From Betaproteobacteria bacterium (GTDB lineage Bacteria > Pseudomonadota > Gammaproteobacteria > Burkholderiales > SG8-41), in assembly GCA_029863175.1 (NCBI GenBank), contig JAOTVX010000047.1, positions 1-23,919 of the forward strand: a stretch of DNA of 23,919 nucleotides, read 5' to 3'. The translations under genes and the position numbers were made by a program. Position 1 is the stretch's first letter. The number at the start of each line of letters is the position of its first letter. Positions 5,255 through 20,010 of this stretch are shown piece by piece. A model generated the notes under the pieces. It had not been told where the DNA came from and did no database searches. It saw only the letters and a list, made by a program, of their open reading frames with translations.

Positions 5255-5277
5255 CGGGTGACGGTTGATCAGTGAAG
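5251..5277. repeat. 7-mer array bridging a stop and a start codon
   Basis: Units GTGACGG, GTGACGG, TTGATCA and the beginning of GTGAAGA run in 7-nt register. The first unit carries the TGA stop of the upstream dehydrogenase; the fourth supplies the GTG used as the likely start of the downstream secreted protein. No separate Shine-Dalgarno sequence is visible between them. Confidence 0.75.
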
Positions 5278-5976: not shown

Positions 5977-6251
5977 CGGCAGCAAGCCGAGCAAAATCCG
6001 TGATCCGTGATTGACCTGGGTTCTTGTCATCCGAAGCGGTCTCAAAAGGCCGCAGCCGTCCGAACACCACCAACCACGGAACCACGGAGAAGGGCGCGGA
6101 ACGTAACTCATCCTCGCTTATTTTTTTTACTTTCGTCCGTGTATTTCCGTGTGATTCCATGGCTGTAATCGATCTTGAGGTTGCTTTTAGTCACCGGCTT
6201 TTGACTCATCACTCATCACTGATCACTCGTCACCCGTCACTCATCAATTTG
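5977..6251. repeat. Convergent intergenic region with nested two-arm repeats
   Basis: Outer arms: two heptamers ATCCGTG at 5996-6009 and six heptamers of ACTCATC/ACCCGTC type at 6204-6245. Inner arms (family E): AACCACGG twice at 6072-6087, and TCCGTGTATT, TCCGTGTG at about 6136-6153, which are roughly reverse-complementary (CCACGGA against TCCGTGT). Between the inner arms is a run of eight T at 6121-6128. The right outer arm touches the MFS gene, whose TGA stop (6252-6254, complement) immediately follows. This could act as a bidirectional terminator, but no compact GC hairpin directly precedes the T run. Confidence 0.75.
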
Positions 6252-7511
6252 TCACCTCGTGCGTCCGCTGAACGCCAGCAGCCCGGCGGTTACTGCGAGC
6301 AGGGTCATGGCGCTTAAGGCGAGCGACCAGTGAATACCGATCATGCCGCCCACGACACCAATGGTAACGCCGCTGAAGGCGCGTAGGCCGAGCGCGGACA
6401 TGTTGTAGAGGCCGATCACGCGGCCGCGGATGTGCACGGGCGCTTGCAGTTGCACCAGCGTCATCGCCATCGCGTTGAACGAGAGCTCCAGAAACCCCGC
6501 CACGAATAGCAGTATGAGGGCAATCTCGTAAACGGGGGCAATCGCGAACCCGCCGATTGCGAGACACCAGAGAAAAGCGAGGCCGAGCGCGGTGCGCGGG
6601 TTCGGCGGAAGCAATCCGCGGCTCTCGAGAACGATGCCGGCCAAAAAAGCGCCCGCAGCATTCGCGGCGAGCAGCATGCTGTAGGACACGCCAACATTGT
6701 CCTGGCCGAGGTCATGCGCGAAGCCGGGCATCTGCGCCTGATAGCCTTGACCGATGAAAAACGAGGCGCAGCCTGCGAGCAGGATCATGGACACGATCGT
6801 CGGGTTTCCGGCGACATCGCGGATCGTGCCGGTAATGTCGCCGAAGCCGCGCACGACACGCGCAGGCGGTGTGTAGTCCTTTCTGAACCGCGGGCCGTAC
6901 GGCGCCTTCCACAGCCACAGCACCATCGGCAGGTAGATGAGCGCGTTGATCAAGATTCCGATCGAGGGCCCGAGCGCGAGCATCAGACCCCCGCCGACCG
7001 CCGGGCCGAGAAATATTCCAAGCCAGCGCGCCGTGGCGCTCAAGCGCACCGCGCTTTGCAGATGCGCCGGTCCCACAATGTCGTGTATCAGCATTTGGGA
7101 GGCCGGGGCCCACAGCACGCCAGCGAAGCCGTGGATGACCAGCAGCACGCACGCGTGCCAAACCTGGAGCGTGTCGGTGACGAAGAGCACGCCCCAGGCG
7201 AGCGACACGATAACGAACAGGCCCATGCCGAGTTGGATGACGCGCCGAGGGTCGAAGCGGTCGGCGAGATGTCCGGAATAGACCGAGAACAGCAGAAACG
7301 GCACCCAGTGCGAGATGACAGCGAACCCCCCGAGTTCCGGCGACTGGAACTTCTCGAAGATCACCCAGTAGCTGATGACGTGCTCGATGTTGTCCGCCAT
7401 CATCGCCAGCGCCGTGGTGACGAAGTACACCCGGTAGCCGGGGTGGCGGAGCGCGGCGAACGATAGCCGCGGAACGGCGGGCGGTGCGGCGCTTTCTTGC
7501 GGACGGGCCAA
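6252..7511 (-). CDS. MFS transporter (MFS_3/enterobactin-exporter-like)
   Basis: 419 aa polytopic membrane protein with about 12 hydrophobic segments, probably a proton-driven exporter. The loop between helices 2 and 3 carries the MFS motif A variant GHLADRFDPRR. The segments WAPASQMLIHDIVGP and LSATARWLGIFLGPAVGGGLM are typical of the EntS/MFS_3 branch. The start is a TTG at 7511; a TAA lies two codons upstream in the same frame, so the protein cannot extend further, and the next Met is at residue 37. The charged N-terminus (MARPQESAAPPAVPRL) supports the TTG. The TGA stop touches the 6204-6245 heptamer array. Substrate unknown; the neighbouring monooxygenase and methyltransferase would fit efflux or uptake of an aromatic compound. 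Confidence 0.88.
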   Translation of the reverse strand: MARPQESAAPPAVPRLSFAALRHPGYRVYFVTTALAMMADNIEHVISYWVIFEKFQSPELGGFAVISHWVPFLLFSVYSGHLADRFDPRRVIQLGMGLFVIVSLAWGVLFVTDTLQVWHACVLLVIHGFAGVLWAPASQMLIHDIVGPAHLQSAVRLSATARWLGIFLGPAVGGGLMLALGPSIGILINALIYLPMVLWLWKAPYGPRFRKDYTPPARVVRGFGDITGTIRDVAGNPTIVSMILLAGCASFFIGQGYQAQMPGFAHDLGQDNVGVSYSMLLAANAAGAFLAGIVLESRGLLPPNPRTALGLAFLWCLAIGGFAIAPVYEIALILLFVAGFLELSFNAMAMTLVQLQAPVHIRGRVIGLYNMSALGLRAFSGVTIGVVGGMIGIHWSLALSAMTLLAVTAGLLAFSGRTR

Positions 7512-7566
7512 GCGTTACTTTCTGCTCGGTATTGGCGAAGGCGCCACTATATCAAGGCCGAGGCCA

Positions 7567-7641
7567 GTTCCAAGTTCAATGTTCAAAGCGGGGAACTTCG
7601 TATTCGTGAGTCGTCCGACTTTGCTTGAACCTTGAACAAGC
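7567..7641. repeat. Two-arm 7-mer element (GTTCAAT / TTGAACC)
   Basis: Left arm: heptamers GTTCCAA, GTTCAAT, GTTCAAA at 7567-7587. Right arm: GCTTGAACCTTGAACAAGC at 7623-7641, with TTGAACC and TTGAACA units. The arms are reverse-complementary in 7-nt register and are separated by about 36 nt. The element lies between the MFS start and the monooxygenase stop (both minus strand). It shows that the facing-arm layout recurs with a sequence unrelated to GTGATG. Confidence 0.8.
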
Positions 7642-7654
7642 TCGCGTTCAGTGG

Positions 7655-8887
7655 TCAGCCGGCAGCCAGCTCCGCAATATCGACCGAAGAGGATCCAATC
7701 TCCTGCATCAGAACCTCCGCTGGCGGTTCTTGCTCGGCCTCGGTCCGCTCTGCCGCCGGCTTCAGCTGCGCCTCGAGGTAGGCGCCCAGCCTGCGCGCGC
7801 GCGAGACGATGCGCTCACCGAACACACGCCGCTCGGCCTCGTAGCGCGCAAGCGACGCGTCGACATCGTCGCCGGTCTTCTTGAGCGCCGCGGCAAGGCA
7901 CTCGGCGTCTAGCGCCGCTTTGGTGACGCCCATGCCCACGTGGGGCCGTGCCATGAACGCGGCGTCGCCCAACAGTGCGACGCGACCCAGGGTCATCGCG
8001 GGTGACTCGAGATCAAAGATGGCGTGGAAGAACGGCTGCTCCGTTCGCTCGACAATTCCTGCGATCTGGGGCGCTAGCAGCGCGCGGGCGGTGGTTTTGA
8101 TATCGGCAACGACCTCGGCGCGGATCAGCGGGGGTGGAATCGCGATGCCGTGGCAGTGCCCGGTGGCGTCGGTGCAGAGCTGCGGGAGCGCGCGATCGGG
8201 GTCCGTCGGCCGGTACCAGATGTGGTTGTAGCCGCGATGTCCCGGCCGCGTGTCGTTGTCGCTTCCCGGCACGGGGTAGGAGAGCATCATCTCGCCCTCG
8301 GGCAGGCAGAACGTATAGCACTCGAAAAGCTCGCGGTGGACGTCAGGCGGGAACGACGACTCATCGACAAGCCCGCGCCACGCGACATAGCCCGCGTAGC
8401 GCGGTTGCGCCTCGGGCATGAGGATCCCGCGCACGGTCGAGCGGATGCCGTCCGCCCCGACGAGCAGTTCGCCGCGCGCACGCGAGCCGTCGGCGAACAC
8501 GGCCGTGACACCGCCCGCGTCCTGCTTGACGCCGGTGAGCTGCATTCCGAAGTGATAGTTCCCGGCCGGAAGCGCGTCCTTAAGGAGCCGGTAGATGCGG
8601 GACCAGGCACTCATGCGTTGCGGCTTTCGCATCTCGTGGATGACGCGGCCGCTGCGGTCGAGGCAAATGCGATCCTCCACCATGACGCTGACTGTTCCGT
8701 CCACGGGCAGGCCGAGCCGCCCTAGCGCCACGTGCAATTCATCATGGGTGCCGATCCCCGCGCCGCGGCTCGCAAGATCGTCCCCGACGCGCTCGAACAC
8801 GTCCACGTCCCATCCGCTGCGGCGAAGCCAGTTGGCGGCGAGGAGGCCGCCGAGGGAGCCGCCGATGACGATTGCGCGCTGCTTCAT
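7655..8887 (-). CDS. FAD-dependent aromatic monooxygenase (2,6-dihydroxypyridine hydroxylase-like)
   Basis: 410 aa flavoprotein of the class A hydroxylase group. FAD-binding motifs are GGSLGG (9-14, dinucleotide fold), GADGIRSTVR (144-153, DG motif) and LLGDAAFMARPHVGMG (305-320, GD motif). Overall order and segments such as RYAGYVAWRG (163-172) and SYPVPG (203-208) resemble 2,6-dihydroxypyridine 3-monooxygenase, so an N-heteroaromatic or phenolic substrate is plausible but not proved. The ATG at 8887 begins MKQRAIVIGG, right at the first strand. The region before the start lacks a normal Shine-Dalgarno sequence: the minus strand reads ATCACCTCCTT, a copy of the 16S rRNA 3' tail. The TGA stop lies beside CTGACC/ACTGAAC repeat units. 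Confidence 0.9.
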   Translation of the reverse strand: MKQRAIVIGGSLGGLLAANWLRRSGWDVDVFERVGDDLASRGAGIGTHDELHVALGRLGLPVDGTVSVMVEDRICLDRSGRVIHEMRKPQRMSAWSRIYRLLKDALPAGNYHFGMQLTGVKQDAGGVTAVFADGSRARGELLVGADGIRSTVRGILMPEAQPRYAGYVAWRGLVDESSFPPDVHRELFECYTFCLPEGEMMLSYPVPGSDNDTRPGHRGYNHIWYRPTDPDRALPQLCTDATGHCHGIAIPPPLIRAEVVADIKTTARALLAPQIAGIVERTEQPFFHAIFDLESPAMTLGRVALLGDAAFMARPHVGMGVTKAALDAECLAAALKKTGDDVDASLARYEAERRVFGERIVSRARRLGAYLEAQLKPAAERTEAEQEPPAEVLMQEIGSSSVDIAELAAG

Positions 8888-8897
8888 ACGAGAAGGA

Positions 8898-9073
8898 GGT
8901 GATGAAAGATGGTGATGATTAATGGTGATGATTAATGGTGATGAAAAAGGGTGATGAAAAATGGTGATGAAAAATGGTGATGAAAAATGGTGATGAAAAC
9001 CGTCAGCAGGTTTGTAGTGCCCTACGCATCACCAGTATCTCATCACCAGTTTCCATCACCAGTACCCATCACC
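8898..9073. repeat. Paired 13-nt array E2 (8 left units / 4 right units)
   Basis: Left arm 8898-9001: eight copies of GGTGATG exactly 13 nt apart, with 6-nt A/T-rich linkers (AAAGAT, ATTAAT twice, AAAAAG, AAAAAT three times, AAAACC). Centre: two small hairpins, AAACC/GGTTT (8997-9013) and GTAG-TGCC-CTAC (9014-9025). Right arm 9027-9073: CATCACC four times with linkers AGTATCT, AGTTTC, AGTACC (spacing 14, 13, 13). The left arm begins 11 nt outside the monooxygenase start. The last right-arm unit contains the stop codon of the methyltransferase (9069-9071 complement). Confidence 0.95.
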
Positions 9074-9761
9074 GTTTCTTCAGCGTGATGCCCACTCCTG
9101 CAGCGTCCATGTTGACGAATACCGTTTCGAGCGCTGGATCCGTTGTGACAGCGCGAACATACTCGGGGTCGGGGGGAGGCGAGGCCATATTATGAGCGAC
9201 GATCAAGCCGCCGGCGCGAACGAGAGGCAGCAGCTTGCGCAGGTAGTCGGGATAGCCTCCCTTATCGGCGTCGATGAAAACCAGGTCGACCGGATCGTTG
9301 AGCTTCGTGACTTCCTCATGCGCGTCGCCGAGCACGAGAGCAGCCAGGGCGCCGACGCCGGCGCGCTCGAAGTTTTCGCGCGCCGTCGTGTGGCGGCCCT
9401 CATCGATTTCGTAGGTCACGAGCTTCCCGCCCGCCTTTCTCAACGCGAGCAGCAGCCACAGCCCGGAGTAACCGGTCGAAGTGCCGAGCTCAACGATGCG
9501 CTGTGCGCCGATAGATTCAGCGAGGATGCGCAGCAACCGGCCGTCTTCGGGCGGGACGCTGAGGTAGCGGTGGTTGCGGTAGACGTCCTCGATGACGTCG
9601 AGAATGCGGCGCTCCTCGGCGGAGTGGGGCCTGGGTGACCCTTCCGCCGCGTTTCCGCGCTGGCGGTACTGGGCCCGCGCTAATGCTGTGGGAATCAGCG
9701 CCGCCAGGCCTGCGGCGGCGCCCAGTGCGCGGCGGCGGGACGGATCGCGCGGCTTCGACAT
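9069..9761 (-). CDS. O-methyltransferase (COMT-like) with a Tat-type N-terminal leader
   Basis: 230 aa. The methyltransferase domain (about 45-230) shows SAM motif I VELGTSTGYSG (90-100), the acidic ribose ligand in YEIDEG (117-122), and the metal-site motif IDADKGGYPDY (163-173). In catechol/caffeoyl-CoA methyltransferases the next metal ligands are an Asp-Asn pair; here the same place reads His190-Asn191 (VAHNMASP). The N-terminus SRRRALGAAAGLAALIPTALARAQ matches a twin-arginine leader (SRR-x-hydrophobic, A-x-A-like end), unexpected because SAM is cytosolic. The ATG at 9759-9761 is the natural start; a shorter start after the leader is not obvious. The TGA stop lies inside a CATCACC repeat unit. 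It may act with the neighbouring monooxygenase on a catechol-like compound (inference). Confidence 0.85.
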   Translation of the reverse strand: MSKPRDPSRRRALGAAAGLAALIPTALARAQYRQRGNAAEGSPRPHSAEERRILDVIEDVYRNHRYLSVPPEDGRLLRILAESIGAQRIVELGTSTGYSGLWLLLALRKAGGKLVTYEIDEGRHTTARENFERAGVGALAALVLGDAHEEVTKLNDPVDLVFIDADKGGYPDYLRKLLPLVRAGGLIVAHNMASPPPDPEYVRAVTTDPALETVFVNMDAAGVGITLKKR

Positions 9762-9894
9762 CGCCTATGAGAACCTACAAAAAGAGGGCCACCAGTTTAA
9801 CGCCAGGGGCCTTAGCGCTCCAGCGCCGGGAGGGCGCGAGAAAGACCGCGGAAGCTTCGAGTATGATGGGCGAAACGAAGGCTGCGAGGGGTTC

Positions 9895-10812
9895 GTGCCC
9901 GTACGCGTTGCGTTCATCGGATTCGGCGAGGTCGCGGCGGCGTTTGCCGCGGCGCTGGCGCAGCGCGGCGTCCCGGTCCGGGCATACGATGTGCTGCTGG
10001 AGCGGCCCGAAGGACGGGAGCGCCTGGAGGCGCGGGCGCGCGGCGCGGCGGTCCAGTTCTCCGCGCTTCCGCAGGCGCTCGTCGATGCCCACTTCGTGTT
10101 CTCAACGGTGACGACGACGGTTGCGCGGGAGGCGGCGCGCCTTTGCGCCGCGCACCTGGTTTCGGGGCAGACCTACGTCGACTTCAACGCGACCGAGCCG
10201 TCAGTCAAGAGCGAGATCGCGCGCATCGTCGCGCCCAGCGGAGCGGACTTCGTCGAGGGTGCGGTGCTCGGCGCGGTCGGGTTAACGGGTGCCCGCACCG
10301 AGATCCTGCTCGGCGGGCCGCATGGCGAGCGCGCGGCTCGCGAGCTCGCGAACGAGCTCGGCTTGAACGTGCGCTTCTACAGCAAGGACATCGGCCAGGC
10401 CTCGACTTTCAAGATGCTGCGCAGCGTCTTCTCGAAGGGACTCGAGGCGCTGCTGCTCGAGTTTCTTGTCGCGGGCGAGCGGGCCGGCATTCGTGAAGAC
10501 CTGTGGCGAGAGGTGACCGATCTCTTCGATAAGAACCGGTTCATGACAGTAGCGGCCAACTGGGTCTGCAGCCACGCGGTCGCGCATGAGCGCCGTCATC
10601 ACGAGATGGCGGATGTCGCCGGCGTGCTGCGCAGGCTCGGCGTGGATCCGGTGTTGACCGCGGCGACGGAGGCTGTGTTCGGGCGCTCCGTCGAACTGGG
10701 GATGAAGAATGCATTTGCGACCCGGCCGGAACGGATGGAGGACGTGATCCGCTTCCTCGAGGAACGTACGCAACTCGATGCGAAACGGAACGGCATCGAA
10801 GGCGATGCCTGA
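9895..10812 (+). CDS. NAD(P)-dependent dehydrogenase with DUF1932 C-terminal domain
   Basis: 305 aa of the 6-phosphogluconate/3-hydroxyisobutyrate dehydrogenase superfamily. The nucleotide fold begins at once: RVAFIGFGEVAAAFAAAL, with GFGEVA near residues 9-14. Family segments VDFNATEPSVKSEIA and DFVEGAVLGAVGLTGARTEILLGG are present, followed by KDIGQASTFKMLRSVFSKGLEALLLE (catalytic-Lys helix) and the DUF1932-type C-terminus. The GTG at 9895 is chosen: GAGG lies about 6 nt upstream and the Rossmann strand starts four codons later. Its stop overlaps the start of the aldolase gene, indicating translational coupling. Together they could reduce or cleave a hydroxy-keto acid. The substrate is unknown. 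Confidence 0.88.
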   Translation: MPVRVAFIGFGEVAAAFAAALAQRGVPVRAYDVLLERPEGRERLEARARGAAVQFSALPQALVDAHFVFSTVTTTVAREAARLCAAHLVSGQTYVDFNATEPSVKSEIARIVAPSGADFVEGAVLGAVGLTGARTEILLGGPHGERAARELANELGLNVRFYSKDIGQASTFKMLRSVFSKGLEALLLEFLVAGERAGIREDLWREVTDLFDKNRFMTVAANWVCSHAVAHERRHHEMADVAGVLRRLGVDPVLTAATEAVFGRSVELGMKNAFATRPERMEDVIRFLEERTQLDAKRNGIEGDA

Positions 10813-11593
10813 GCTCATGAAAACAAACCGCATGAAAGCAAAGCTCCTCGCCGGCGAGCCCGTGTTCGGGGCTTCGGTGATGATTCCTTCACCGCAGCTC
10901 GTCGAGATGCTCGGCGCCTTCGGCTTCGACTGGGTGCTGCTCGACTGTGAGCACGGCACACTCACGCTCGAGAGCGTGGAGCTGATGGCGATGGCGGCTG
11001 AAGCGAGTGGCATCACCGCGATCGCCCGCCCCGTGACACGCAGCGCCGAACACATCCTGCAGGTGCTCGACCGCGGCGTAATGGGCGTGCAGGTGCCGCA
11101 CGTAAACACCGCGGCGGATGCGCGGGAAGTCGTCCAGGCCGTGAAGTACTACCCGAGCGGGCAGCGCGGCCTCGCGGCAGGAACCCGCGCCGCGGTCTAC
11201 GACGCGCACGGCACTATGGTCGACTACGTTCGCGCCGCCAACGAGCAGACGTTGATCGCGATTCAGCTCGAGGAACGCGAGGCCATCGACAACCTGGACG
11301 ACCTGCTGAAGGTCGACGGCGTGGACGTGTTTTTCATCGGCCCGTCGGATCTCTCTCAATCGATGGGGCACCCCGGCAATCCCAAGGCCGCGCCCGTCGC
11401 GAAGGCGATCAACTGCAGCTTCGAACGGATCGTCGCGGCGGGCCGCATCCCGGGAACGCCTGCGACGGCCGAGAGTGTTGCCGGCGTCCTCAAGCAGGGC
11501 GTGCGCTATATCTATACCCACGTGCCGCGGTTGATTGCGGCGAGCGCCAAGGCTTTTTTCGAGAAGGCCCGCCCCTCAGGGGATGCCAGCTGA
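10805..11593 (+). CDS. HpcH/HpaI-type class II aldolase
   Basis: 262 aa from ATG 10805, which overlaps the upstream stop by 8 nt; ATG 10817 is an alternative. It cleaves or forms 4-hydroxy-2-oxo acids (pyruvate aldolase), divalent-metal dependent. Family residues are in the expected spacing: His50 in LLDCEHG, Arg75 in IARP, the metal ligands Glu156 (IQLEE) and Asp182 (GPSDLS), 26 residues apart as in HpaI, and the substrate motif YYPSGQRG (115-122). The product may be pyruvate plus an aldehyde from an aromatic meta-cleavage or sugar-acid pathway; 4-hydroxy-2-oxoheptanedioate and 2-dehydro-3-deoxyglucarate are both possible. Co-transcribed with the DUF1932 dehydrogenase. Confidence 0.92.
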   Translation: MPELMKTNRMKAKLLAGEPVFGASVMIPSPQLVEMLGAFGFDWVLLDCEHGTLTLESVELMAMAAEASGITAIARPVTRSAEHILQVLDRGVMGVQVPHVNTAADAREVVQAVKYYPSGQRGLAAGTRAAVYDAHGTMVDYVRAANEQTLIAIQLEEREAIDNLDDLLKVDGVDVFFIGPSDLSQSMGHPGNPKAAPVAKAINCSFERIVAAGRIPGTPATAESVAGVLKQGVRYIYTHVPRLIAASAKAFFEKARPSGDAS

Positions 11594-11668
11594 TACCGCA
11601 TGACTGGCGACTAATCGTTCGAGCTTCTGTTTACTGTTCCATCCAGCGATCAGGGCTGAAGCGACGAT

Positions 11669-11720
11669 CCGGCGTAGCGGGTTTAGCGCCGGTCACCCCT
11701 CAAGCCCTCATGCGGAGGGG
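11669..11720. other. Two hairpins downstream of the aldolase operon
   Basis: CCGGCG (11669-11674) pairs with CGCCGG (11687-11692) around a 12-nt loop. CCCCTC (11696-11701) pairs with GAGGGG (11715-11720), or CCCTC/GAGGG at 11705-11719 with a 5-nt loop. No T tract follows, so a classical intrinsic terminator is not supported. The pair could be a terminator aided by Rho, or structured 5' RNA for the HIG1 gene. Confidence 0.35.
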
Positions 11721-11786
11721 GTTCAGGCCTAGTCCCTGGTCGCAAGTCACGCTCATGAGGCAAACGCAGGCCCGCCGATAGAATCT

Positions 11787-11800
11787 TTGATCCTGGTCAA
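11787..11800 (+). promoter_or_regulatory. FNR/ANR-type box upstream of the HIG1 gene
   Basis: TTGATCCTGGTCAA matches the FNR/ANR consensus TTGAT-N4-ATCAA with one substitution. Its centre is 66 nt before the ATG at 11860. Placed at -41.5 (class II activation), transcription would start near 11835, with TAGCTT (11822-11827) as a weak -10 and a short leader containing the Shine-Dalgarno sequence. Confidence 0.6.
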
Positions 11801-11845
11801 AAACGCTTCGTACCGAGGGCGTAGCTTGTCAGAGTGCTATAGCCG

Positions 11846-11855
11846 TAAGGAGGTG
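11846..11855 (+). promoter_or_regulatory. Strong ribosome-binding site for the HIG1 gene
   Basis: TAAGGAGGTG is a near-complete complement of the 16S rRNA 3' end and ends 4 nt before the ATG at 11860 (6 nt counted from GGAGG). It fixes the start of this very small gene and predicts high translation. Confidence 0.8.
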
Positions 11856-11859
11856 GGGC

Positions 11860-12042
11860 ATGACATTCATGACAGCGATGGTTCTGGCGGCGGCCTTTGT
11901 TGTGGCTCTTTCCCTGGCGCTCGGCGTGACCTCCATGGCGAAGGGAGGCGAGGTCGCGCATCACACCAGCGGCGAATGGATGGTGGCGCGCGTCGGCTTA
12001 CAGGCGCTGGCGCTGGCACTGCTGTTGCTCTCGCTGTTATAG
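11860..12042 (+). CDS. HIG1-domain (twin-transmembrane) small protein
   Basis: 60 aa. Two hydrophobic helices (about 5-23 and 44-60) flank a short loop MAKGGEVAHHTSGEWMVARV, which fits the hypoxia-induced HIG1 pattern of two helices around a GGE...S..M..RV motif (PF04588 type). Such proteins sit in the inner membrane, and in bacteria and mitochondria are linked to assembly or tuning of cytochrome oxidase. The start is certain from the excellent ribosome-binding site. An FNR-type box 60 nt upstream agrees with oxygen-dependent expression. It is convergent with the malic enzyme gene, 90 nt apart. The family assignment rests on pattern recognition of a short sequence. Confidence 0.78.
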   Translation: MTFMTAMVLAAAFVVALSLALGVTSMAKGGEVAHHTSGEWMVARVGLQALALALLLLSLL

Positions 12043-12132
12043 CAACGCGCGCTCGACTCGCGCAGGCGCCCCGGCCAGGCACCGCGGTTACCGCTCGATT
12101 TTTCCGTTGGGCTCCCCGTGCGGCCGTTAGCG

Positions 12133-13791
12133 TCAGATGTAGCTCTGGTAGCGCGGGTCGTACATTTGCGCCTTGATATGCGCCGCTAGGTCGCTCGGCG
12201 CCGCGCCGGTGCTCAGGCTGCGCCGGTGAGCGACTTCGGCGACGGCGATGGCAATGTTGCCCGACACCTCCCGGATGCGCGGCAGCGCCGGGTAGAGGCT
12301 GCCCTGCGCGAGGTCCGTCTCGGTCACGTCGTGCGCCAGAGAATGCGCCGCCGTCATGAACATCTCGTCCGTGATGCGCTGCGCGCCGCTCGCGATCGCG
12401 CCGAGCCCGACGCCAGGGAAGATGTAGGAATTGTTGCCCTGGCGCGGGACAAAGGTCTGGCCGTTCACGGTCACGGGGTCGAAGGGGCTGCCACAGGCAA
12501 AGAGCGCCCGGCCCCCAGTGTAGCGGTACGCTTCCTCGGCCGTGCATTCCGCTTTCGACGTCGGGTTGGAGAGCGCGAAGATGATCGGCCGCTCGTTCAG
12601 GCGCGCCATTTCCTCGAGCACTTCCCGCGTGAAGGTGCCACCGACCGCAGCGACCCCAATGATCGCAGTGGGCCTGAGGGCCTTGATGACCGAGAGGAAA
12701 TCGCCAACGGGCGCGTGCTCGTGCGCGTAGGGCAGCTTGTGCTCGACAAGATCCGTGCGGCTCTTGACGACGAGCCCGCGGGAGTCCACCAGCCAGCAGT
12801 GGCGGCGCGCATCATCCTCTTTCATGCCCTGCGACGCCATTGCGGAGGCCACAAGATCGGCGATGCCCGCGGCCGCTTCACCCGCGCCAAGAAACAGAAT
12901 CCTCTGGTCGGTCAGCTTGCCGGCGGTAACGCGCAGCGCGGAAAAAATTCCAGCGAGCGCGACGGCCGCGGTGCCCTGGATATCGTCGTTGAACGTCGGG
13001 ATGCGCTCGCGGTACCGGTTGAGAAACCGGAATGCATTATGGTTGGCGAAGTCCTCGAACTGGATCACCACGCCCGGAAATACTTTCTGCGCCGCGGTAA
13101 TGAATTCCTCCACCAGCTCGTCGTAGGCGCTTCCGCGCAGCCGGCGCTCGCGCACGCCGATGTAGAACGGGTCGTCAAGCAGCTCCATGTTGTTGGTGCC
13201 GACATCCAGCATCACCGGCAGGCAGGCGTTGGGATGCACGCCGGCGCAGGCGACGTAGAGTGACAGCTTGCCGACCGGGATCCCCATGCCGTTCGCGCCG
13301 AGGTCGCCCAGCCCGAGAATGCGCTCGCCGTCGGTCACCACGATGATCCCGGCGCGGTAGGGCCAGTTCTCCAGCACCTTCGCAACCCGGCCCCGGTCGC
13401 GCACGGAGATGAACATCCCGCGCGGGCGCTGGTAGATGTGCCCGAAGCGCTGGCAGGCGAGCCCCACGGTCGGGGTGTAGATAAGCGGCTGCATCTCGTC
13501 GATGTTGTCGCAGATGACGCGAAAGAACAGGGCCTCGTTGCGATCGTGCAAGGCGTTCAGCGCCACAAACTTCTCGAGATCGTTCGGCAGCCCCCGCAGG
13601 TTCTCGAGGATGCGCGCGACCTGCTGTTCCTGGGAGAGCACGACCGATGGCAGCAGCCCGCGCAGCTTGAGCGCGTCGCGCTCGCGCTCGGTGAACGCGG
13701 TTCCCTTGTTGAGCGCCGGATCGCGCAGCAGCGAGAGGCCTCGGTGGTTTTCCGAAACCACGGGCGTATCGTGTCTATTTTGTTCTGGCAT
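12133..13791 (-). CDS. maeA: NAD-dependent malic enzyme
   Basis: 552 aa, the usual length of the bacterial MaeA/SfcA group. It decarboxylates L-malate to pyruvate and CO2 with reduction of NAD. Catalytic and binding residues are visible: Tyr105 (IYTPTVG), Lys175 (GIPVGKL), metal ligands Glu246 and Asp247 (FEDFAN) and Asp270 (FNDDIQGTAAV), and the nucleotide loop GAGEAAAGIA (302-311). The absence of a phosphotransacetylase domain separates it from MaeB. The ATG at 13791 has AGGAGGAC about 8 nt upstream. A perfect FNR box lies upstream at 13866-13879, suggesting oxygen-regulated expression. It stands alone as a transcription unit. Confidence 0.96.
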   Translation of the reverse strand: MPEQNRHDTPVVSENHRGLSLLRDPALNKGTAFTERERDALKLRGLLPSVVLSQEQQVARILENLRGLPNDLEKFVALNALHDRNEALFFRVICDNIDEMQPLIYTPTVGLACQRFGHIYQRPRGMFISVRDRGRVAKVLENWPYRAGIIVVTDGERILGLGDLGANGMGIPVGKLSLYVACAGVHPNACLPVMLDVGTNNMELLDDPFYIGVRERRLRGSAYDELVEEFITAAQKVFPGVVIQFEDFANHNAFRFLNRYRERIPTFNDDIQGTAAVALAGIFSALRVTAGKLTDQRILFLGAGEAAAGIADLVASAMASQGMKEDDARRHCWLVDSRGLVVKSRTDLVEHKLPYAHEHAPVGDFLSVIKALRPTAIIGVAAVGGTFTREVLEEMARLNERPIIFALSNPTSKAECTAEEAYRYTGGRALFACGSPFDPVTVNGQTFVPRQGNNSYIFPGVGLGAIASGAQRITDEMFMTAAHSLAHDVTETDLAQGSLYPALPRIREVSGNIAIAVAEVAHRRSLSTGAAPSDLAAHIKAQMYDPRYQSYI

Positions 13792-13865
13792 GGTAATTGT
13801 CCTCCTCGAATAGCGGAACCAGCATGTGCAATAAATTAATCTTGCGCCGCCACGGGCCGGGCTTC

Positions 13866-13879
13866 TTGATGCAGATCAA
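13866..13879 (-). promoter_or_regulatory. Perfect FNR/ANR box upstream of the malic enzyme gene
   Basis: TTGATGCAGATCAA matches TTGAT-N4-ATCAA in both half-sites. Centred at 13872.5, it would place a class II start near 13831 on the minus strand, about 40 nt before the ATG. The A/T-rich run TTAATTTATT (minus strand, 13839-13830) lies within a few bases of where the -10 element is expected. Confidence 0.72.
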
Positions 13880-14004
13880 ACGCGCCGCGGCTGCCCGCGA
13901 CGCGCGTCAGGCGGGTCTTCACGGTCCGCAATGGCGCGGCCCCGGCTGGGGCGTTCCGCAAGGATCCGGGAGCGACCTCTGGGCAGCGGGGGCGTCTACT
14001 GGAC

Positions 14005-14117
14005 CTTGATGGGAAAGGGTGATGATTCCGGGTGATGTACACAGCCGATGACGCTTCCTTATCCTTTTCTCTTATCACATTTATCATCACCAATTCCCAT
14101 CACCACTTCCTGCCACC
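14005..14117. repeat. Paired 13-nt array E3 (about 3 left / 3 right units)
   Basis: Left arm: CTTGATG, GGTGATG, GGTGATG at 14005, 14018 and 14031 (13-nt pitch; linkers GGAAAG, ATTCCG). Right arm: CATCACC at 14085 and 14098, TGCCACC at 14111, with a more degenerate TTATCAC before them. This is the most eroded copy. Its right arm ends 2 nt before the alpha/beta hydrolase stop codon. The rest of the 13792-14119 gap holds the malic enzyme promoter region and a GC-rich stretch with nothing recognised. Confidence 0.8.
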
Positions 14118-14119
14118 AG

Positions 14120-14980
14120 TCAGGCCTGCGCGGAGCCGGCAGGGGCGATGGCGCGTTCGAGGAAACCCGTAAAGATCGCGGCGATCTCGTCGTCCTTCTC
14201 CTGCCACTCCTCCGGGGGCACCAGGTCCATGTCCTCGTCCTTGTCGAAGAGCTCGTGCAGCTCGCAGTCCGGGAGCAGCCGTGCCAGGTTCCGGCCGGTT
14301 TTGATGTCATGGGTCCGGTCGTTGCCGGGAATGACGCAGGCCGGGAGCTTGATGGACTTCAGGTCCGCCTCGGAGGCGCCGATGATCGGCAGCTCGGCGC
14401 CCTGGAGAAAATATTCGCGCCAGCGTGACATGGCCTCGATGAAGTGCTTCGAATCCATCTTCATCAGATAGTCGCGGTTGGCGCCGCGTGCCGCGATGCG
14501 CTCCTGCCAGTGCTCTGTTGCGCACACTGCGGCCATGCCGCCGCTTTCTGCAGCCTCGATGTACTGCGTGTAGTACTGGCGCGCCAACCGCTGCGCGGCA
14601 AACTGGCCGCCGGTAATGCGCCACAGCAAGAGGGCGGTGACGAGCTTCGCGTAGCGCAGGGTGAAAAGGATGGCGAGCCGGCAGCCCGAAGAGCCGCCGC
14701 CGATAATCGCGGGAAGGGCGCCGAGCTGCCCCAGCAACTCGTGCAGATCATCCGCCCAGATCTCGTTCTCGGGATCGTTTCCGCCGATGGTCACGTCGGA
14801 GGCCCCGCAGTTGCGCCGGTCGTGAATGACGACGCGATACCCGGAGTCGGCCATGCGCTGCGCGAGCGGCTTCACGCCCTGCAGCGGGCGCCTGCCGCCG
14901 GGCGAGAGCGCCATCCAGGGCCCTTTCGTGCCGAGCACCTCGTAGTTGATGTGGACGCCTCTTACATTCGCGCTTGGCAT
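14120..14980 (-). CDS. Alpha/beta-hydrolase-fold protein lacking an obvious catalytic histidine
   Basis: 286 aa. The nucleophile elbow GGSSG (95-99, Ser97) and the early HG-like segment MALSPGGRRP (23-32) mark the alpha/beta hydrolase fold. RVVIHDRRNCGASD (49-62) is the standard strand before it, and CVIPGNDRTHD carries the candidate acid. Where the catalytic His normally sits (a GH near the end of the domain) the sequence reads HELFDKDEDMDLVPPEEW, with no His after the acid other than the one in HEL. Activity may therefore be altered, or another His may serve. The ATG at 14980 is preceded by GGGGAGAAG. The gene is bracketed by paired arrays E3 (3') and E4 (5'). Confidence 0.85.
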   Translation of the reverse strand: MPSANVRGVHINYEVLGTKGPWMALSPGGRRPLQGVKPLAQRMADSGYRVVIHDRRNCGASDVTIGGNDPENEIWADDLHELLGQLGALPAIIGGGSSGCRLAILFTLRYAKLVTALLLWRITGGQFAAQRLARQYYTQYIEAAESGGMAAVCATEHWQERIAARGANRDYLMKMDSKHFIEAMSRWREYFLQGAELPIIGASEADLKSIKLPACVIPGNDRTHDIKTGRNLARLLPDCELHELFDKDEDMDLVPPEEWQEKDDEIAAIFTGFLERAIAPAGSAQA

Positions 14981-15022
14981 CGATCTTCTCCCCGGACAGG
15001 ACTGTTGGCAGTCTTAGGAAAT

Positions 15023-15155
15023 GGTGACGAATAATGGTGATGACTAATGGTGATGAAAAATGGTGATGAAAAGCGATCAGTTAGGAAGGCGAATGGACGG
15101 GGTTTCGTCCATCACCAGTACTCATCACCGGTCTTCATCACCAGTATCCCATCAC
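15023..15155. repeat. Paired 13-nt array E4 (4 left / 4 right units) with central hairpin
   Basis: Left arm: GGTGACG at 15023, then GGTGATG at 15036, 15049 and 15062 (strict 13-nt pitch; linkers AATAAT, ACTAAT, AAAAAT). Centre: perfect hairpin ATGGACG-GGGTTT-CGTCCAT at 15093-15112. Right arm: CATCACC at 15110, 15123 and 15136, then CATCACT at 15150. It lies between the hydrolase start and the SDR stop, 13 nt from the latter. Confidence 0.95.
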
Positions 15156-15168
15156 TCGTTGTAAGGCG

Positions 15169-15924
15169 TCAGCCGCGTCCGACAAAGGGCATCTTCGTCG
15201 CCATGATCGTCATGAACTGGACGTTCACGTCGAGCGGTAGATTGGCCATGAAGAGCGCGGCATTGCCGACATGGTGCACGTCCATGCGTGGCTCCGGCGT
15301 GATCGTGCCGTTGGCCTGCATGACGCCTTTGGCCATGCGCTCGGTCAACGGCGTGATGGCGTTGCCGATGTCGATTTGCCCGCACGCGATGTCGTACTTG
15401 CGCCCGTCGAGCGAGATCGTCTTGGTAATGCCGGTGACCCCGTGTTTCGTCGCCGTGTAGGCGATCGAATTGGGACGGGGCGTGTGGGCGGAGATCGAGC
15501 CGTTGTTGATGATGCGCCCGCCGCGCGGATCCTGGTCCTTCATGATGCGGAACGCCTCCTGCGCGCAGATGAACATGCCGGTGAGATTCACGTCTACGAC
15601 ACCTTGCCATTGCTCGAAGGTGAGATCTTCCAGGGGCGCCGTCGCGCCGCCGCCGGCGTTGTTGAAGAGCACATCGAGCCGGCCGAACTGCTGCTTCACG
15701 GCGGCGAACAGCGCCCGCACGGCGTCGAGCTTGCCCACGTCGGTCGGCACGACAAGTGCGTTCTTGCCGACCGGCCCGGCTTCCGCAACGGTCTGCTCGA
15801 GCATTTCCTTGCGGCGCCCGGCGAGCGCGACCCGGTAGCCGTCCTTGAGGAACGCGAGCGCGACCGCCCGGCCGATTCCGGTGCCGGCGCCGGTGACGAC
15901 GGCGGATTTGGTCGGTGATGCCAT
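15169..15924 (-). CDS. Short-chain dehydrogenase/reductase
   Basis: 251 aa, classical SDR length. Cofactor loop TGAGTGIG (11-18), structural NNAG (88-91), catalytic Ser143 in NNGSISAH and the catalytic pair Tyr156/Lys160 (YTATK) are all present. Oxidises or reduces an alcohol/ketone with NAD(P); substrate not determined. The ATG at 15924 has GCGGAGACAG upstream. A paired array flanks it on each side (E4 downstream, E5 upstream), so the transcript would begin and end in repeat RNA. It is divergent from the hydroxyisobutyrate-dehydrogenase-like gene. Confidence 0.93.
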
Positions 15925-15946
15925 CTATCTGTCTCCGCTTTGAACT

Positions 15947-16077
15947 GGTGATGATTAATGGTGATGAAAGATGGTGATGATTAATGGTGATAATAACCGC
16001 CGCTCGCGAGAGCGAGGGGTAGGGTTTTGCCCATCACCAGTACTCATCACCAGTTTCCATCACCAGTACCCATCACT
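15947..16077. repeat. Paired 13-nt array E5 (4 left / 4 right units) in a divergent promoter region
   Basis: Left arm: GGTGATG at 15947, 15960 and 15973, GGTGATA at 15986 (linkers ATTAAT, AAAGAT, ATTAAT). Centre: hairpin CTCGC-GAGA-GCGAG at 16003-16016 with a GNRA-type loop. Right arm: CATCACC at 16032, 16045 and 16058, CATCACT at 16071 (linkers AGTACT, AGTTTC, AGTACC). The element fills most of the gap between two divergent start codons (15924 minus, 16182 plus). Confidence 0.95.
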
Positions 16078-16181
16078 TCTTATGCAGGTATAAGAGGCGT
16101 AAATGGTAACGCATGCGCCGCCATGCGCGCGAGCCGCGTAAAATGGGGTCTTTCGAGGATTCATCGGGGCGGGGAGGTTGC

Positions 16182-17063
16182 GTGGAAGCGGTCGGGGTAA
16201 TCGGTACGGGACTGATGGGTACGGCGTGCATCGAGCGCCTCAAAGGGACAGGCCTCGACGTCGTCGCCTACGACGTGGACGAAGCGAAGCGCGCAGCGGC
16301 GGCGAAGCTCGGCGCGCGCGCCGTGGTATCGGTTGCGGAGGTCGCCAGGCAGTGCGAGAGGATCGTGCTGTGCGTTTTCACGACCGACCAGGTCGAGCAG
16401 GTCATCGAGGGTACGGGCGGAATCGCCGAGGCCGCCCGCAAGGAACCACGGATTGTGATCTGCACCAGCACCTGCGACCCGGACCGGCTGGCCGCGCTCG
16501 CGTCCCGGGTGGAAGCCCATGGCGTGCACTTCCTCGAAGTGCCGATCTCGGGCACCAGCCGCCAGGTGGCGGAAGGTGATGGCGTCGGGCTCGTTGGCGG
16601 CGATCGCGCAGCCATGGAACGCGCAGCGCCAGTGCTCGATGCGATCTGCCCGCGGCGCTTTCACTTGGGTGCGGTGGGAAACGGCTCCCGTACCAAGCTT
16701 GCCGTGAATCTCATCCTGGGCATCAATCGCGCGGCGATGGCCGAAGGCTTTGCCTTCGCGGAGCGCCTGGGCCTCGACACGCTCGCGTTCCTCGAGGTCG
16801 CCAAGGCCTCCGCGTGTCATTCGCAGGTCATGGACGTGAAGGGGCACATGATGGCGCGCCGCGAGTTCGACAACGTCCAGGGCCGCGTGGACCAGTCACT
16901 GAAAGATTTCAAGCTAATGCTCGAACAGGCCAGCAAGGCCGGGCAGGCTCTGCCGTTCGCCACGATCTATGCGCGGATGCTCGAGGATTGCGTCCAGAAC
17001 GGCGAGGGTGCCTGGGACAACATGGCCATTCTCGAGGCCATACGCCGCCGCCGAGCGCTGTAA
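16182..17063 (+). CDS. 3-hydroxyisobutyrate dehydrogenase-family oxidoreductase
   Basis: 293 aa from GTG 16182, chosen because GGGGAGG is 5 nt upstream and the Rossmann strand EAVGVIGTGLMG follows directly. Motifs: GTGLMG (8-13), the substrate-binding segment EVPISGTSRQVAEGDG (119-134), and the catalytic lysine Lys172 with Asn176 in GNGSRTKLAVNLILGIN. NAD(P)-dependent oxidation of a beta-hydroxyacid or reduction of a semialdehyde (glyoxylate/succinate semialdehyde or tartronate semialdehyde reductases are the same family). The TAA stop is followed after 5 nt by array E6. It is divergent from the SDR gene across E5. Confidence 0.9.
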   Translation: MEAVGVIGTGLMGTACIERLKGTGLDVVAYDVDEAKRAAAAKLGARAVVSVAEVARQCERIVLCVFTTDQVEQVIEGTGGIAEAARKEPRIVICTSTCDPDRLAALASRVEAHGVHFLEVPISGTSRQVAEGDGVGLVGGDRAAMERAAPVLDAICPRRFHLGAVGNGSRTKLAVNLILGINRAAMAEGFAFAERLGLDTLAFLEVAKASACHSQVMDVKGHMMARREFDNVQGRVDQSLKDFKLMLEQASKAGQALPFATIYARMLEDCVQNGEGAWDNMAILEAIRRRRAL

Positions 17064-17068
17064 AAAAT

Positions 17069-17154
17069 GGTGATGATGAATGGTGATGATAGGTGGTGAT
17101 TGAGAAGCGCCTTATCCGGCCTGTCACCAGTTCCCATCACCAGTTTCCATCACT
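17069..17154. repeat. Paired 13-nt array E6 (3 left / 3 right units) with REP-like core
   Basis: Left arm: GGTGATG at 17069 and 17082, GGTGATT at 17095. Core: GCGCCTTATCCGGCCTG at 17107-17123. Right arm: TGTCACC at 17122, CATCACC at 17135, CATCACT at 17148 (linkers AGTTCC, AGTTTC). It separates two convergent genes, starting 5 nt after the TAA of the plus gene and ending 14 nt before the stop of the minus gene, where a strong hairpin could serve as a shared terminator. Confidence 0.93.
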
Positions 17155-17168
17155 TACTCATCAAGGCA

Positions 17169-18329
17169 CTAGCCGGCGCGGAACCGCCGCACCTGCTCCT
17201 CATTCACTTCCACGCCAAGCCCCGGACCCCGCGGACGGGCGACGCGGCCGCGCTCGACGCGTAGCGGAGTCACGGCCAGGTCCTCGGCAAGATAGTGGTT
17301 GGTAATGCTCAAGCCCCAGTTCAGATTGGGTGCCAGGCAGGCGAGCTGCACGATCGCCGCCGCCCCCAGGCTGGATTCGGCGACCTTGCACGCAAGATTG
17401 ATATTGAGGCCCAGCGCCGCGCACACCGACATGGCGTGCACCGTGACCCCAATGCCGCCCAGCTTGATCGTCTTGATGTTGGCGCCGTGGATTGCGCCCA
17501 AGCGGTGCAGCGCGATGATGTTGGCGATGCTCGCGATCGACTCATCGGCGCACTGCGGAATCGGGCTCTCTCGCGCCAGCGCAGCCATGCCCTCGAAATC
17601 CTCGGCGGCGAGTGGCTGTTCCATGAAGAGCAGGTTGGCCTCGCGGGCGCATTCGGCGAAACGCCGGGCATCGGCGTATTGCATTCCCATATTGGCGTCC
17701 GCACACAGCGCAACCGTGTCGCCAAGGTGGCGTCGAACTGCGATTGCCGCCGCAGCCTCTTCGGCCGGCGCCTTGATCCCGATCTTGAGCTTGAAAAAGG
17801 TCCAGCCCTCCTTCAGCTTGCCCGCAGCCTCCGCGATATCGTCCTCGACCCTGGGATTGCCGAGCAGGTACATCGGCTCGGCATCATCGCGCAGCGCCCC
17901 TCCGAAGAGGTCGCAGAGCGAGACGCCGAAGTGGCGCCCGACGAGGTCGTTGAGGGCCATGTCGAGCGCGCATTTCGCCCCAGTGTTGTGCAGCAGCGCA
18001 CCCGCGCAACGGGCCGCCAGTCCGGCACGATTGAGCGCATCCTGTCCGCGCACGAGCGGCGCGAGGTGATCGGCCACGGCGGCAACCATTCCGGGCAGCA
18101 TGTCGCCGGTCATGAGCGGTGCGGCCGAAGCTTCGCCCCAGCCGACGAGACCGTTCGCGGCCTCGATCCGTACCAGCAGCGATTGCGAGCGCTCGATGCG
18201 CTCGCCCGCCATGACGACGGGCTTCTTCAGCGGCAGCGCGACGGGGATCGCATCCACGCGCGCGATGGTGAGCGGAGCCGCGGCGGTGCGCGCCGCAGCC
18301 GGGAATGACGATGCTGCAGTGAGAGCCAT
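17169..18329 (-). CDS. Mandelate racemase/muconate lactonizing enzyme family protein
   Basis: 386 aa from ATG 18329 (GGAG 6 nt upstream); a TTG four codons earlier is less likely. Enolase-superfamily residues in MLE order: Lys180-x-Lys182 (FFKLKIG), metal ligands Asp211 (ADANMG), Glu237 (FMEQPL) and Asp262 (CADES), and Lys286 (NIKTIKLGG), 24 residues after Asp262 as in muconate cycloisomerase. The N-terminal capping domain has IPVALPLKKPVVMAGERI. All catalytic positions are kept, so it should be active, perhaps as a cycloisomerase, dipeptide epimerase or acid-sugar racemase; substrate not resolved. It begins about 72 nt downstream of nnrS on the same strand and may be co-transcribed. Confidence 0.92.
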   Translation of the reverse strand: MALTAASSFPAAARTAAAPLTIARVDAIPVALPLKKPVVMAGERIERSQSLLVRIEAANGLVGWGEASAAPLMTGDMLPGMVAAVADHLAPLVRGQDALNRAGLAARCAGALLHNTGAKCALDMALNDLVGRHFGVSLCDLFGGALRDDAEPMYLLGNPRVEDDIAEAAGKLKEGWTFFKLKIGIKAPAEEAAAAIAVRRHLGDTVALCADANMGMQYADARRFAECAREANLLFMEQPLAAEDFEGMAALARESPIPQCADESIASIANIIALHRLGAIHGANIKTIKLGGIGVTVHAMSVCAALGLNINLACKVAESSLGAAAIVQLACLAPNLNWGLSITNHYLAEDLAVTPLRVERGRVARPRGPGLGVEVNEEQVRRFRAG

Positions 18330-18401
18330 GGTCTTCTCCAAGGATCGTGTCCTTCTTTATAGCCCCGTCGCCAAAGTAGATCAATCCTCGGCGCCCGCGT
18401 C

Positions 18402-19598: not shown

Positions 19599-20010
19599 GA
19601 CTATTGGCCAAAAGCGATCTCAATAAATACAAGAAACAAGACTAGCCGCAGATAAACGCCGATGAGTCGAGTAAATAGAAAATGGCAAATAGTAAATGGC
19701 AGAAACGCTTGAACCGGCATGCATGCTCCTACTATTTCCTGTTTCCCCATTCCCTATTTCCGCGCAGCCGTGGGCGTCCCTCAACGGCTATAGGTCAGCA
19801 ACGGTTTCCGGTGAACGGCCAGCGCGGCAGGGAGCGCGTTGAGTATCGCAGGCGCCCGCCCCGCGCGCCCTTGATTTCCATCAAGGGCGCGCGAGCGGTT
19901 CGGCGCTGCGCAGGCGGCAACGCGCAGGCGCAACCGTGAGAAAAGGCGCTGGGCTCGCCGCGCGGGCGCGGCATGAGCTATCCTTGCGCCTTTTCAGATC
20001 GCGGGTTCCG
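19599..20010. repeat. Divergent intergenic region: 10-nt element, two-arm 7-mer element, long palindrome
   Basis: 19642-19668 is a family C copy (minus-strand reading ATCGGCGTTT, ATCTGCGGCT, AG). 19673-19707 has five heptamers (AAATAGA, AAATGGC, AAATAGT, AAATGGC, AGAAACG). 19717-19726 is the perfect palindrome GCATGCATGC at the apex. 19734-19761 has four heptamers (ATTTCCT, GTTTCCC, CATTCCC, TATTTCC), roughly complementary to the left arm. The 14-bp palindrome at 19862-19893 is listed separately. The gap separates nnrS (minus) and ettA (plus). Confidence 0.8.
19862..19893. promoter_or_regulatory. 14-bp perfect inverted repeat containing an FNR-type site
   Basis: CGCGCGCCCTTGAT, loop TTCC, ATCAAGGGCGCGCG: all 14 pairs match. 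Its core TTGATTTCCATCAA (19871-19884) equals the FNR/Dnr consensus. It lies 118 nt before ettA and 264 nt before nnrS; nnrS is the expected target. As RNA it would be a very stable hairpin, but no T tract follows on either strand, so a terminator is not supported. Confidence 0.6.

Follow-up and report, generated by a model that had tools for sequence, protein, structure and literature searches.

Five intergenic regions between positions 8,898 and 17,154 of a 23,919-nucleotide (nt) stretch of betaproteobacterial DNA (GenBank assembly GCA_029863175.1, contig JAOTVX010000047.1; the whole stretch is referred to as the window) contain repeated GGTGATG heptamers that are followed, beyond a short core, by repeated CATCACC heptamers. 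This arrangement raises the question of what kind of element the facing arrays form, and how far their two arms are made for pairing with each other. A preliminary description of the window suggested a new class of structured intergenic element, in which the heptamers pair in register as short helices that are separated by internal loops. The facing arrays indeed belong to a family of gene-end elements with a common layout, and the linkers between facing heptamers are less complementary than expected by chance, which is called here the hetero-arm rule.

Facing heptamer arrays form a family of elements

In the window, the two strands together contain 41 copies of GGTGATG, compared with 3.0 expected copies and a maximum of 7 in 100 shuffles. 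Two units at a pitch of 13 nt (GGTGATG-N6-GGTGATG, at most two mismatches) were found 31 times versus 0.09 expected. Facing arrays with this pitch are present in all five gaps, as had been described. A metagenome-assembled genome (MAG) of a Betaproteobacteria bacterium, designated SG8_41, contains one contig that is syntenic with much of the region 348-15873 of the window (76-84% identity). When the genome collection was searched for the exact facing pattern, seven stretches were obtained, six from SG8_41 and one from the groundwater betaproteobacterium G002. The exact one-arm pattern GGTGATG-N6-GGTGATG is present 119 times in SG8_41 and the same pattern read backwards is absent. In 66 stretches of this genome (341,707 bases), at least 85 facing elements were called, along with 17 multi-unit arms that had no partner, and the same stretches gave a single call when reversed; the stretches were chosen by one-arm patterns from about 100 of 119 and about 100 of 180 places, so that 85 is a lower bound. 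A simpler caller, which only counts mismatches, recovered 71 facing elements and found no everted pairs and no same-direction neighbours within 150 nt in SG8_41. Thus, the arms mostly face each other, and the opposite picture that the preliminary description had considered, namely arms that expand independently and rarely occur as facing pairs, does not apply.

The family extends beyond SG8_41. A covariance model (R1), which had been suggested as a check and for which 37 of the 39 eligible elements were used, matched 22 of the 74 genomes of the same bacterial family with E <= 0.001, 56 candidates being scored per genome. The same plan was observed in chosen places of eight relatives (G002, G057, G009, G008, G058, G037, G007 and G010), of which G008, G058, G037 and G007 contributed two elements each and G010 one, all picked by model matches. 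The heptamers of the relatives are mostly GGTGACG/CGTCACC, and G002 and G009 mix both forms. For instance, the arms at the G009 loci L098, L101 and L158 are long, with as many as 12 units in L101, and mix ATG and ACG heptamers, as if G009 were intermediate between the two types. The facing GGTGATG pattern was found in one of 399 genomes of the order, which is SG8_41 itself. With GGTGAYG heptamers and linkers of 6-7 nt, the facing pattern is present in 17 of the 74 genomes of the family, in 15 of 399 of the order (G057, two more members of the family and 12 others) and in 4 of 398 of the phylum (SG8_41 and three single matches). By eye, the matches in the 12 other genomes of the order are arrays with 7-nt pitch or apparent chance matches in coding DNA, and it can be stated that the ladder-like family is rare outside its bacterial family. 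Four genomes of the order (G368, G216, G194 and G282) possess facing GGTGATG/GGTAATG arrays at 7-nt pitch, and such arrays may represent the ancestral form of the ladders with 13/14-nt pitch. No match to Rfam was found in the window at the gathering score.

In SG8_41, the pitch is 13 nt in 373 of 396 steps, 127 of 170 arms consist of three or four units, and the linkers follow the consensus A..R.T. At position 7 of the innermost unit, A is roughly as common as G. The ends of the elements are sharp: the outermost heptamer is directly flanked by AA[AC]T, and from position -5 outwards no strong preference was detected. The cores, of which 67 of 85 entered the analysis of core ends, are between 14 and 74 nt long in a first set of 56 copies. 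The preliminary description had also reported that the number of units matches between the arms. This does not hold in general, as the arm lengths are uncorrelated over the 85 SG8_41 copies (Spearman 0.10, p 0.34); equal numbers occur in 22 of the 85 elements versus 25.6 after shuffling, and numbers within one unit in 68 versus 61.4 +- 3.2. In G057, 9 of 12 elements have four units in each arm. An SG8_41 element at locus L114 (2447-2632) has arms of six and seven units, and the six linkers of its right arm are identical (ATCAAT), which is likely due to a recent expansion confined to a single arm.

Facing linkers are less complementary than expected

If the arms were to pair over their full length, complementary facing linkers would be needed, and the observed complementarity lies below chance, an effect of linker sequence in SG8_41 and of linker length in the relatives. 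Counted over the four inner positions, 137 facing linkers from SG8_41 yield 171 Watson-Crick pairs versus 243 +- 11 when the linkers are permuted across facing pairs. If the linkers are numbered from the core, those with like index are most depleted (z -5.0, -3.1 and -3.0), as compared to -1.5 to -2.7 for unlike indices. Permuting the order of the linkers inside the SG8_41 elements gave p 0.0017-0.0018, and the specificity for the register is modest. Across 130 elements from ten sets, the identity of facing linkers is 0.239 versus 0.330 +- 0.018 when the arms are swapped between elements, a between-element test that is significant in G057 (p 0.0007) and G002 (p 0.009). The between-element effect is retained with the simpler caller (0.314 vs 0.415 +- 0.024).

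The relatives illustrate how linker length may differ between the arms. Of the 12 elements called in G057, 11 have an arm with 14-nt pitch opposite an arm with 13-nt pitch; L197, which does not, is a doubtful call. In the G057 element L143, the pitch alternates as 13/14/13 opposite 14/13/14. The 312 facing linkers of the 130 elements comprise 215 pairs of 6/6 nt, 92 of 7/6 or 6/7, five others and no 7/7. Two doubtful elements (L197, and L165 at 1049), each with one 7/7 linker pair, the only two seen, were dropped from the linker, placement and other-set position counts. The unpaired linkers between heptamer helices, which had been proposed for the window, thus turned out to be a maintained feature, and the observation that heptamers are conserved and linkers vary was confirmed, with both linkers and cores turning over.

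Elements are mostly placed at gene 3' ends

A called gene lies within 400 nt on both sides of 115 of 137 elements. These elements occupy 75 tandem, 31 convergent and 9 divergent gaps, compared with 110 tandem, 19 convergent and 47 divergent gaps among the 176 other gaps of 80-600 nt at the same loci. Divergent gaps are underrepresented (odds ratio 0.23, p 6e-5) and convergent gaps are overrepresented (odds ratio 3.0, p 5e-4) among the gaps with elements. Moreover, 132 gene 3' ends of all sets lie near elements (no more than 25 nt inside or 60 nt outside the element edge), and at 24 of them the outermost heptamer includes the TGA stop codon. This overlap was found in SG8_41 (14 of 88), G057 (5 of 12) and G009 (5 of 17) and was absent from G002 (0 of 7), the remaining sets (0 of 4) and the window (0 of 4), the last count apparently lacking the E2 overlap described below because the crude gene caller missed the O-methyltransferase gene of the window. 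That the linkers differ between the arms, as noted in the preliminary description, is a general rule; the direction that had been derived from it is not tied to transcription, as the linker polarity of 43 elements in tandem gaps agrees with transcription about as often as not (24 vs 18, one tie).

Heptamers vary by place in the arm and between species

Compensatory changes in the heptamers had been named as a further test of pairing, and position-by-position tests revealed none pair by pair within a genome. At position 7 of the innermost units of SG8_41, the facing pairs are A/T (23), G/T (22), G/C (20), A/C (17) and others (3), as if both arms varied independently. A candidate signal at position 7 in SG8_41 (match 0.739 vs 0.636 +- 0.019 within elements) was rejected because it fails in shuffles between elements (p 0.28); the excess reflects the frequent A in the innermost units of either arm. 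A second candidate, at position 1 in the other sets (p 0.045 in shuffles within elements and 0.115 in shuffles between them), was likewise discarded; here, A is frequent in the outermost units. Both signals follow the place in the arm and not the pairs. At position 6, 160 of 200 facing units outside SG8_41 match versus 0.608 +- 0.041, a count in which species are mixed; inside G009 the match is 52 of 76 versus 0.560 +- 0.069 (p 0.04), and inside G002 p is 0.21.

Between species, both arms have changed together from ATG to ACG in most elements of most relatives. Either pairing or a co-changing binding protein would explain this joint change. Furthermore, deviations from the heptamer are mostly transitions (88 of 112, versus 980 of 1886 differences in orthologous DNA), which fits pairing or a site that tolerates exchanges among purines or pyrimidines. 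The unit weights of the element caller favour certain transitions; for this reason, the excess was recounted without weights.

Turnover of the elements

Comparison of orthologous gaps revealed that E2 of the window is present in SG8_41 at the same place and with the same polarity, with about 4/2 instead of 8/4 units and another core. E4 is also found at the same place, with its linker polarity reversed. In the E3 gap of SG8_41 the element is absent and heptamer-like repeats are present instead. Of the two genes flanking E6, the racemase-like one is accompanied by an element at this end in SG8_41 too; there, the second gene follows after about 1.1 kb of other sequence. From the few gaps compared, place and plan seem to outlast linkers, cores and polarity. 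The contigs G001:C128 (at its start) and G001:C58 (at its end) both stop where the E5 gap would be, and assemblies may break at such elements.

Among the SG8_41 copies, no near-identical cores were detected, the best matches being 11 nt long (E <= 0.01), and direct repeats of 4 nt around the ends are as frequent as in shuffles (16 of 85 vs 17.0). Target-site duplication and recent near-identical copies, the features of an insertion-type miniature inverted-repeat transposable element (MITE), were not found for the 85 SG8_41 elements. Matches to Y1_Tnp, the type of transposase (RAYT) that is associated with REP elements and flanked by them, were found in all four carrier genomes searched (nine matches), and no element lies in the four of these nine loci that were examined.

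The elements of the window

For each of E2 to E6, a long hairpin is predicted in which the heptamers pair in register. Compared with 100 dinucleotide shuffles, the z scores of the predicted RNA minimum free energy for E2, E3, E4, E5 and E6 are -7.1, -4.1, -4.9, -8.2 and -4.2 on the plus strand and -7.5, -2.4, -7.4, -7.8 and -3.4 on the minus strand. The reported hairpin inside the core of at least three copies was recovered in the plus-strand folds of E4, E5 and E6. The lone arm E1 (2983-3028, plus strand) shows no fold (z +0.8); it consists of four GGTGATG-like units, two of them exact, with GAAACT linkers, lacks a facing partner and is oriented opposite to the layout of the other arms of the window.

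The longest element, E2, has eight GGTGATG units at 13-nt pitch with A-rich linkers in its left arm (8898-8995, plus strand), a loop (8996-9026) that by eye cannot be aligned with the SG8_41 core of the same gap, and four CATCACC units in its right arm (9027-9073, minus strand) with steps of 14, 13 and 13 nt. The TGA stop codon of the O-methyltransferase gene (9069-9761, minus strand) lies inside its outermost heptamer (9067-9073). The eroded element E3 (14005-14117) retains exact units at 14018 and 14031 and at 14085 and 14098, and adjoins the 3' end of a hydrolase gene (14120). E4 is composed of a left arm (15023-15068, plus strand) of four units, the first being GGTGACG, with AAT-type linkers, a core (15069-15109) that folds as a hairpin with a GGACGGGGTTTCGTCC stretch, and a right arm (15110-15156, minus strand) of four units, the last being CATCACT, with one step of 14 nt. 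The 3' end of a short-chain dehydrogenase gene (15169) is close to this arm. E5, located in a divergent gap, has four units in its left arm (15947-15992, plus strand; innermost GGTGATA), a core with a GC-rich hairpin (15993-16031) and four units in its right arm (16032-16077, minus strand; last CATCACT). The convergent gap of E6 contains a left arm of three units (17069-17101, plus strand; innermost GGTGATT) starting 5 nt past the stop codon of the plus-strand gene 16113-17063, a loop (17102-17121) and a right arm of three units (17122-17154, minus strand; innermost TGTCACC, last CATCACT), which ends 14 nt before the 3' end of the minus-strand gene 17169-18341. Thus, the unit counts given earlier were correct for E2 (8/4), E4 and E5 (both 4/4) and hold for E6 (3/3) provided that GGTGATT and TGTCACC are counted as units, and for E3 only 2/2 units are clear and the rest are eroded; the 14-nt exceptions, in the first right step of E2 and the last right step of E4, were reproduced. 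The genes around the elements belong to ordinary metabolism and encode an FAD monooxygenase-like protein, an O-methyltransferase, a malic enzyme and an alpha/beta hydrolase as well as a short-chain dehydrogenase, a 3-hydroxyisobutyrate dehydrogenase-like and a mandelate racemase-like protein.

The window also contains many tandem arrays with 7-nt pitch (101-182, 4103-4213, 6204-6246, 21738-21807, 23800-23828 and others), whose heptamers differ (GGCGGAA, TGGTCAA, ACTCATC, GACTCAC) and which we take to resemble the STRR heptamers of cyanobacteria. By eye, facing arrays with 7-nt pitch are present at 19673-19755, where AAATAG/AAATGGC is followed by CTATTTC/CCATTC, possibly a relative of the ladder layout. 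Other intergenic repeats, including a 33-nt unit and the AACCACGG and TCCGTGTAAT types, are located at 3283-3371 and 6072-6158.

A putative bidirectional hairpin ladder and its alternatives

The element is tentatively interpreted as a bidirectional hairpin ladder with loops kept open, which resembles the repetitive extragenic palindromic (REP) sequences and bacterial interspersed mosaic elements (BIMEs) found at gene ends and is not a REP by its unit; we give this reading somewhat less than an even chance of being correct. Two facing arms, typically with three or four heptamers at 13/14-nt pitch, would form one long stem with a variable loop from either strand, and the site would mostly lie just past stop codons between tandem or convergent genes. 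The stem would be a ladder of helices of 7-9 bp, in which linkers that are non-complementary in sequence or length would keep the internal loops open. The gene-end placement together with the two-way symmetry points to a role at transcript ends. By analogy with what REP and BIME elements are thought to do, the ladder could mark and protect transcript ends in both directions by stalling or terminating RNA polymerase and by blocking 3'-to-5' decay. The loops kept open suggest that stem formation is frequent enough to be of consequence and that the stem has to remain interrupted; open loops might avert a perfect duplex of at least 20 bp, the target of RNase III in the case of RNA or of hairpin nucleases in the case of DNA. 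A stricter version, which is rather doubtful, holds that selection forbids the pairing of every facing linker. The ladders would then constitute a class of bidirectional transcript-end elements that is lineage-wide and programmed by sequence, and their stem segments would stay under one helical turn and thereby escape enzymes cutting duplexes or palindromes, some species using the sequence of the linkers and others the 14- versus 13-nt pitch, with the ATG/ACG heptamer switched in both arms at once.

Several observations weigh against a hairpin acting in this way. The natural combination of arms is slightly less stable than chimeric combinations (-43.2 vs -45.6 +- 0.6 kcal/mol for 48 of the 85 SG8_41 elements), facing heptamers lack pair-by-pair compensation inside a genome, and E5 sits in a divergent gap. 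There is also no G.U asymmetry: transitions are about equally frequent in both arms (70 transitions in 140 units of the sense 5' arm and 85 in 158 units of the 3' arm), so that the G.U tolerance of an RNA stem is not seen. With respect to the hetero-arm rule, the between-element effect is not significant in G009 (p 0.11) and in the small sets together with the window (p 0.12), and the within-element register test outside SG8_41 gave p 0.19 for the other sets together. The register effect is also lost with the simpler caller (p 0.63), which misses degenerate inner units and thus shifts the register.

Because there is neither compensation nor strand asymmetry, the main and serious rival is an array of DNA sites, an unlikely explanation in our judgement, in which a nucleoid or topology protein binds the double-stranded heptamer and dyad arrays close to the ends of tandem and convergent genes absorb or mark supercoils; the linkers would differ only since DNA does not retain long perfect palindromes. 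Gyrase or IHF have been named as proteins that bind BIMEs. Such sites would account for heptamers that vary independently between the arms and equally relative to transcription, for the placement at gene ends and for the joint change from ATG to ACG, which resembles a site and its protein changing together. In addition, paired sites of Geobacter metallireducens have been read as possible IHF/HU sites in the available text of that report (PMC2700814). However, a pitch that differs between the two arms of an element (13 vs 14 nt) is odd for phased binding, divergent gaps, the expected seat of promoter regulators, are avoided, and the candidate binding protein is still hypothetical.

Alternatively, the ladders could be miniature mobile or selfish repeats of foldback- or REP-like type, whose arms are recognised by a transposase. 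The sharp symmetrical ends, the presence of E3 in the window but not in the SG8_41 gap and the Y1 transposase genes in all four carrier genomes searched are consistent with this idea; it is nevertheless improbable, given that SG8_41 has no near-identical cores and no direct repeats above shuffles, that no element was found in the four Y1 loci examined of the nine matches, and that the genes of E2, E4 and E6 have an element alongside in SG8_41 too. A functionless by-product of mutation, that is, heptamer arrays grown by slippage and inverted by hairpin-templated repair, appears similarly improbable. It would fit the many 7-nt-pitch arrays of the window, the facing ones among the matches of the order, the lone arm E1 and the variable unit numbers that are unmatched between the arms. 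Yet the heptamers persist as linkers and cores change, the placement at gene ends is strong, and slippage or hairpin templating would yield complementary arms, contrary to the hetero-arm rule.

If the hairpin ladder is confirmed, it would represent an unnamed class of gene-end elements with its own design rule, in which enforced mismatches limit the helices of long hairpins to 7-9 bp. The family would then provide a natural test of what limits inverted repeats in bacteria, be it RNase III at the level of RNA, SbcCD-type nucleases at the level of DNA or a binding protein, and a transcript-end marker for a little-known betaproteobacterial lineage that is seen through MAGs. Repeat finders tuned to perfect palindromes or contiguous tandem repeats may overlook such families.

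Comparison with known systems

Inverted arms of short direct repeats around a loop are a hallmark of eukaryotic foldback transposons, which are mobile and far longer than the ladder elements. GGTGAT matches the complement of the 16S rRNA 3' end, and pairing with the 16S tail in the manner of a Shine-Dalgarno sequence was rejected because the relatives use GGTGACG. In the text available to a full-text literature search, no description of the ladder family, the 13/14-nt pitch or the hetero-arm rule was found. The earlier statement that no family with this layout is described has to be qualified by two systems, as far as their available text goes: the facing hepta- and octamers of G. metallireducens and the 3'-end placement of REPs.

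The paired sites of G. metallireducens, a delta-proteobacterium, fall into three classes of three to five tandem hepta- or octanucleotides on opposite strands, with 24, 21 and 8 pairs in the genome and, in classes 1 and 2, a variable distance (PMC2700814). They share opposite-strand pairs of 7-8-mers and the variable distance with the ladders of the betaproteobacterial hosts. In contrast, their units are GTTGCTYN, TCTCCGTS[Y] and MTYCTGA instead of GGTGAYG, and these are arranged in tandem, neither 6-7-nt linkers nor a hetero-arm rule being described in the available text, whereas the ladder heptamers are spaced by linkers (PMC2700814). Looser parallels are found in two other systems. The P6b stem-loop of the Nostoc tRNA-Leu intron contains seven-nucleotide repeats that vary in number on one side or on both; it belongs to a single group I intron, for which the available text describes no dispersed copies at gene ends, whereas the ladders are dispersed (PMC4476775). 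The TAACTGA heptamer arrays of the Beggiatoaceae occur genome-wide, mostly in intergenic regions and with two to six copies, but according to the available text they are direct repeats, with one inverted case, and lie mostly just upstream of start codons, unlike the facing ladder arms (PMC4679880).

REPs are palindromes of 20-40 bp with stems of 5-13 bp and a GTAG or CGTC tag, and the available text describes them as high-copy intergenic dyads located mostly between tandem or convergent genes and near 3' ends (PMC3733652; see also PMC12306157). The ladder agrees with REPs and BIMEs in its placement, as 106 of 115 gaps are tandem or convergent according to the crude gene caller, but differs in its unit, which is GGTGATG plus 6 nt, non-palindromic and without a GTAG tag (PMC3733652). 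The CGTC of the relatives appears only as part of the heptamer CGTCACC and not as a separate REP tag. Moreover, the ladder dyad spans two arms of iterated heptamers, whereas a REP is a single short palindrome (PMC3733652). As judged from the available text of these reports, the facing pairs of G. metallireducens are nearest to the ladder in layout and the REPs are nearest in placement. What is new here is the hetero-arm rule.

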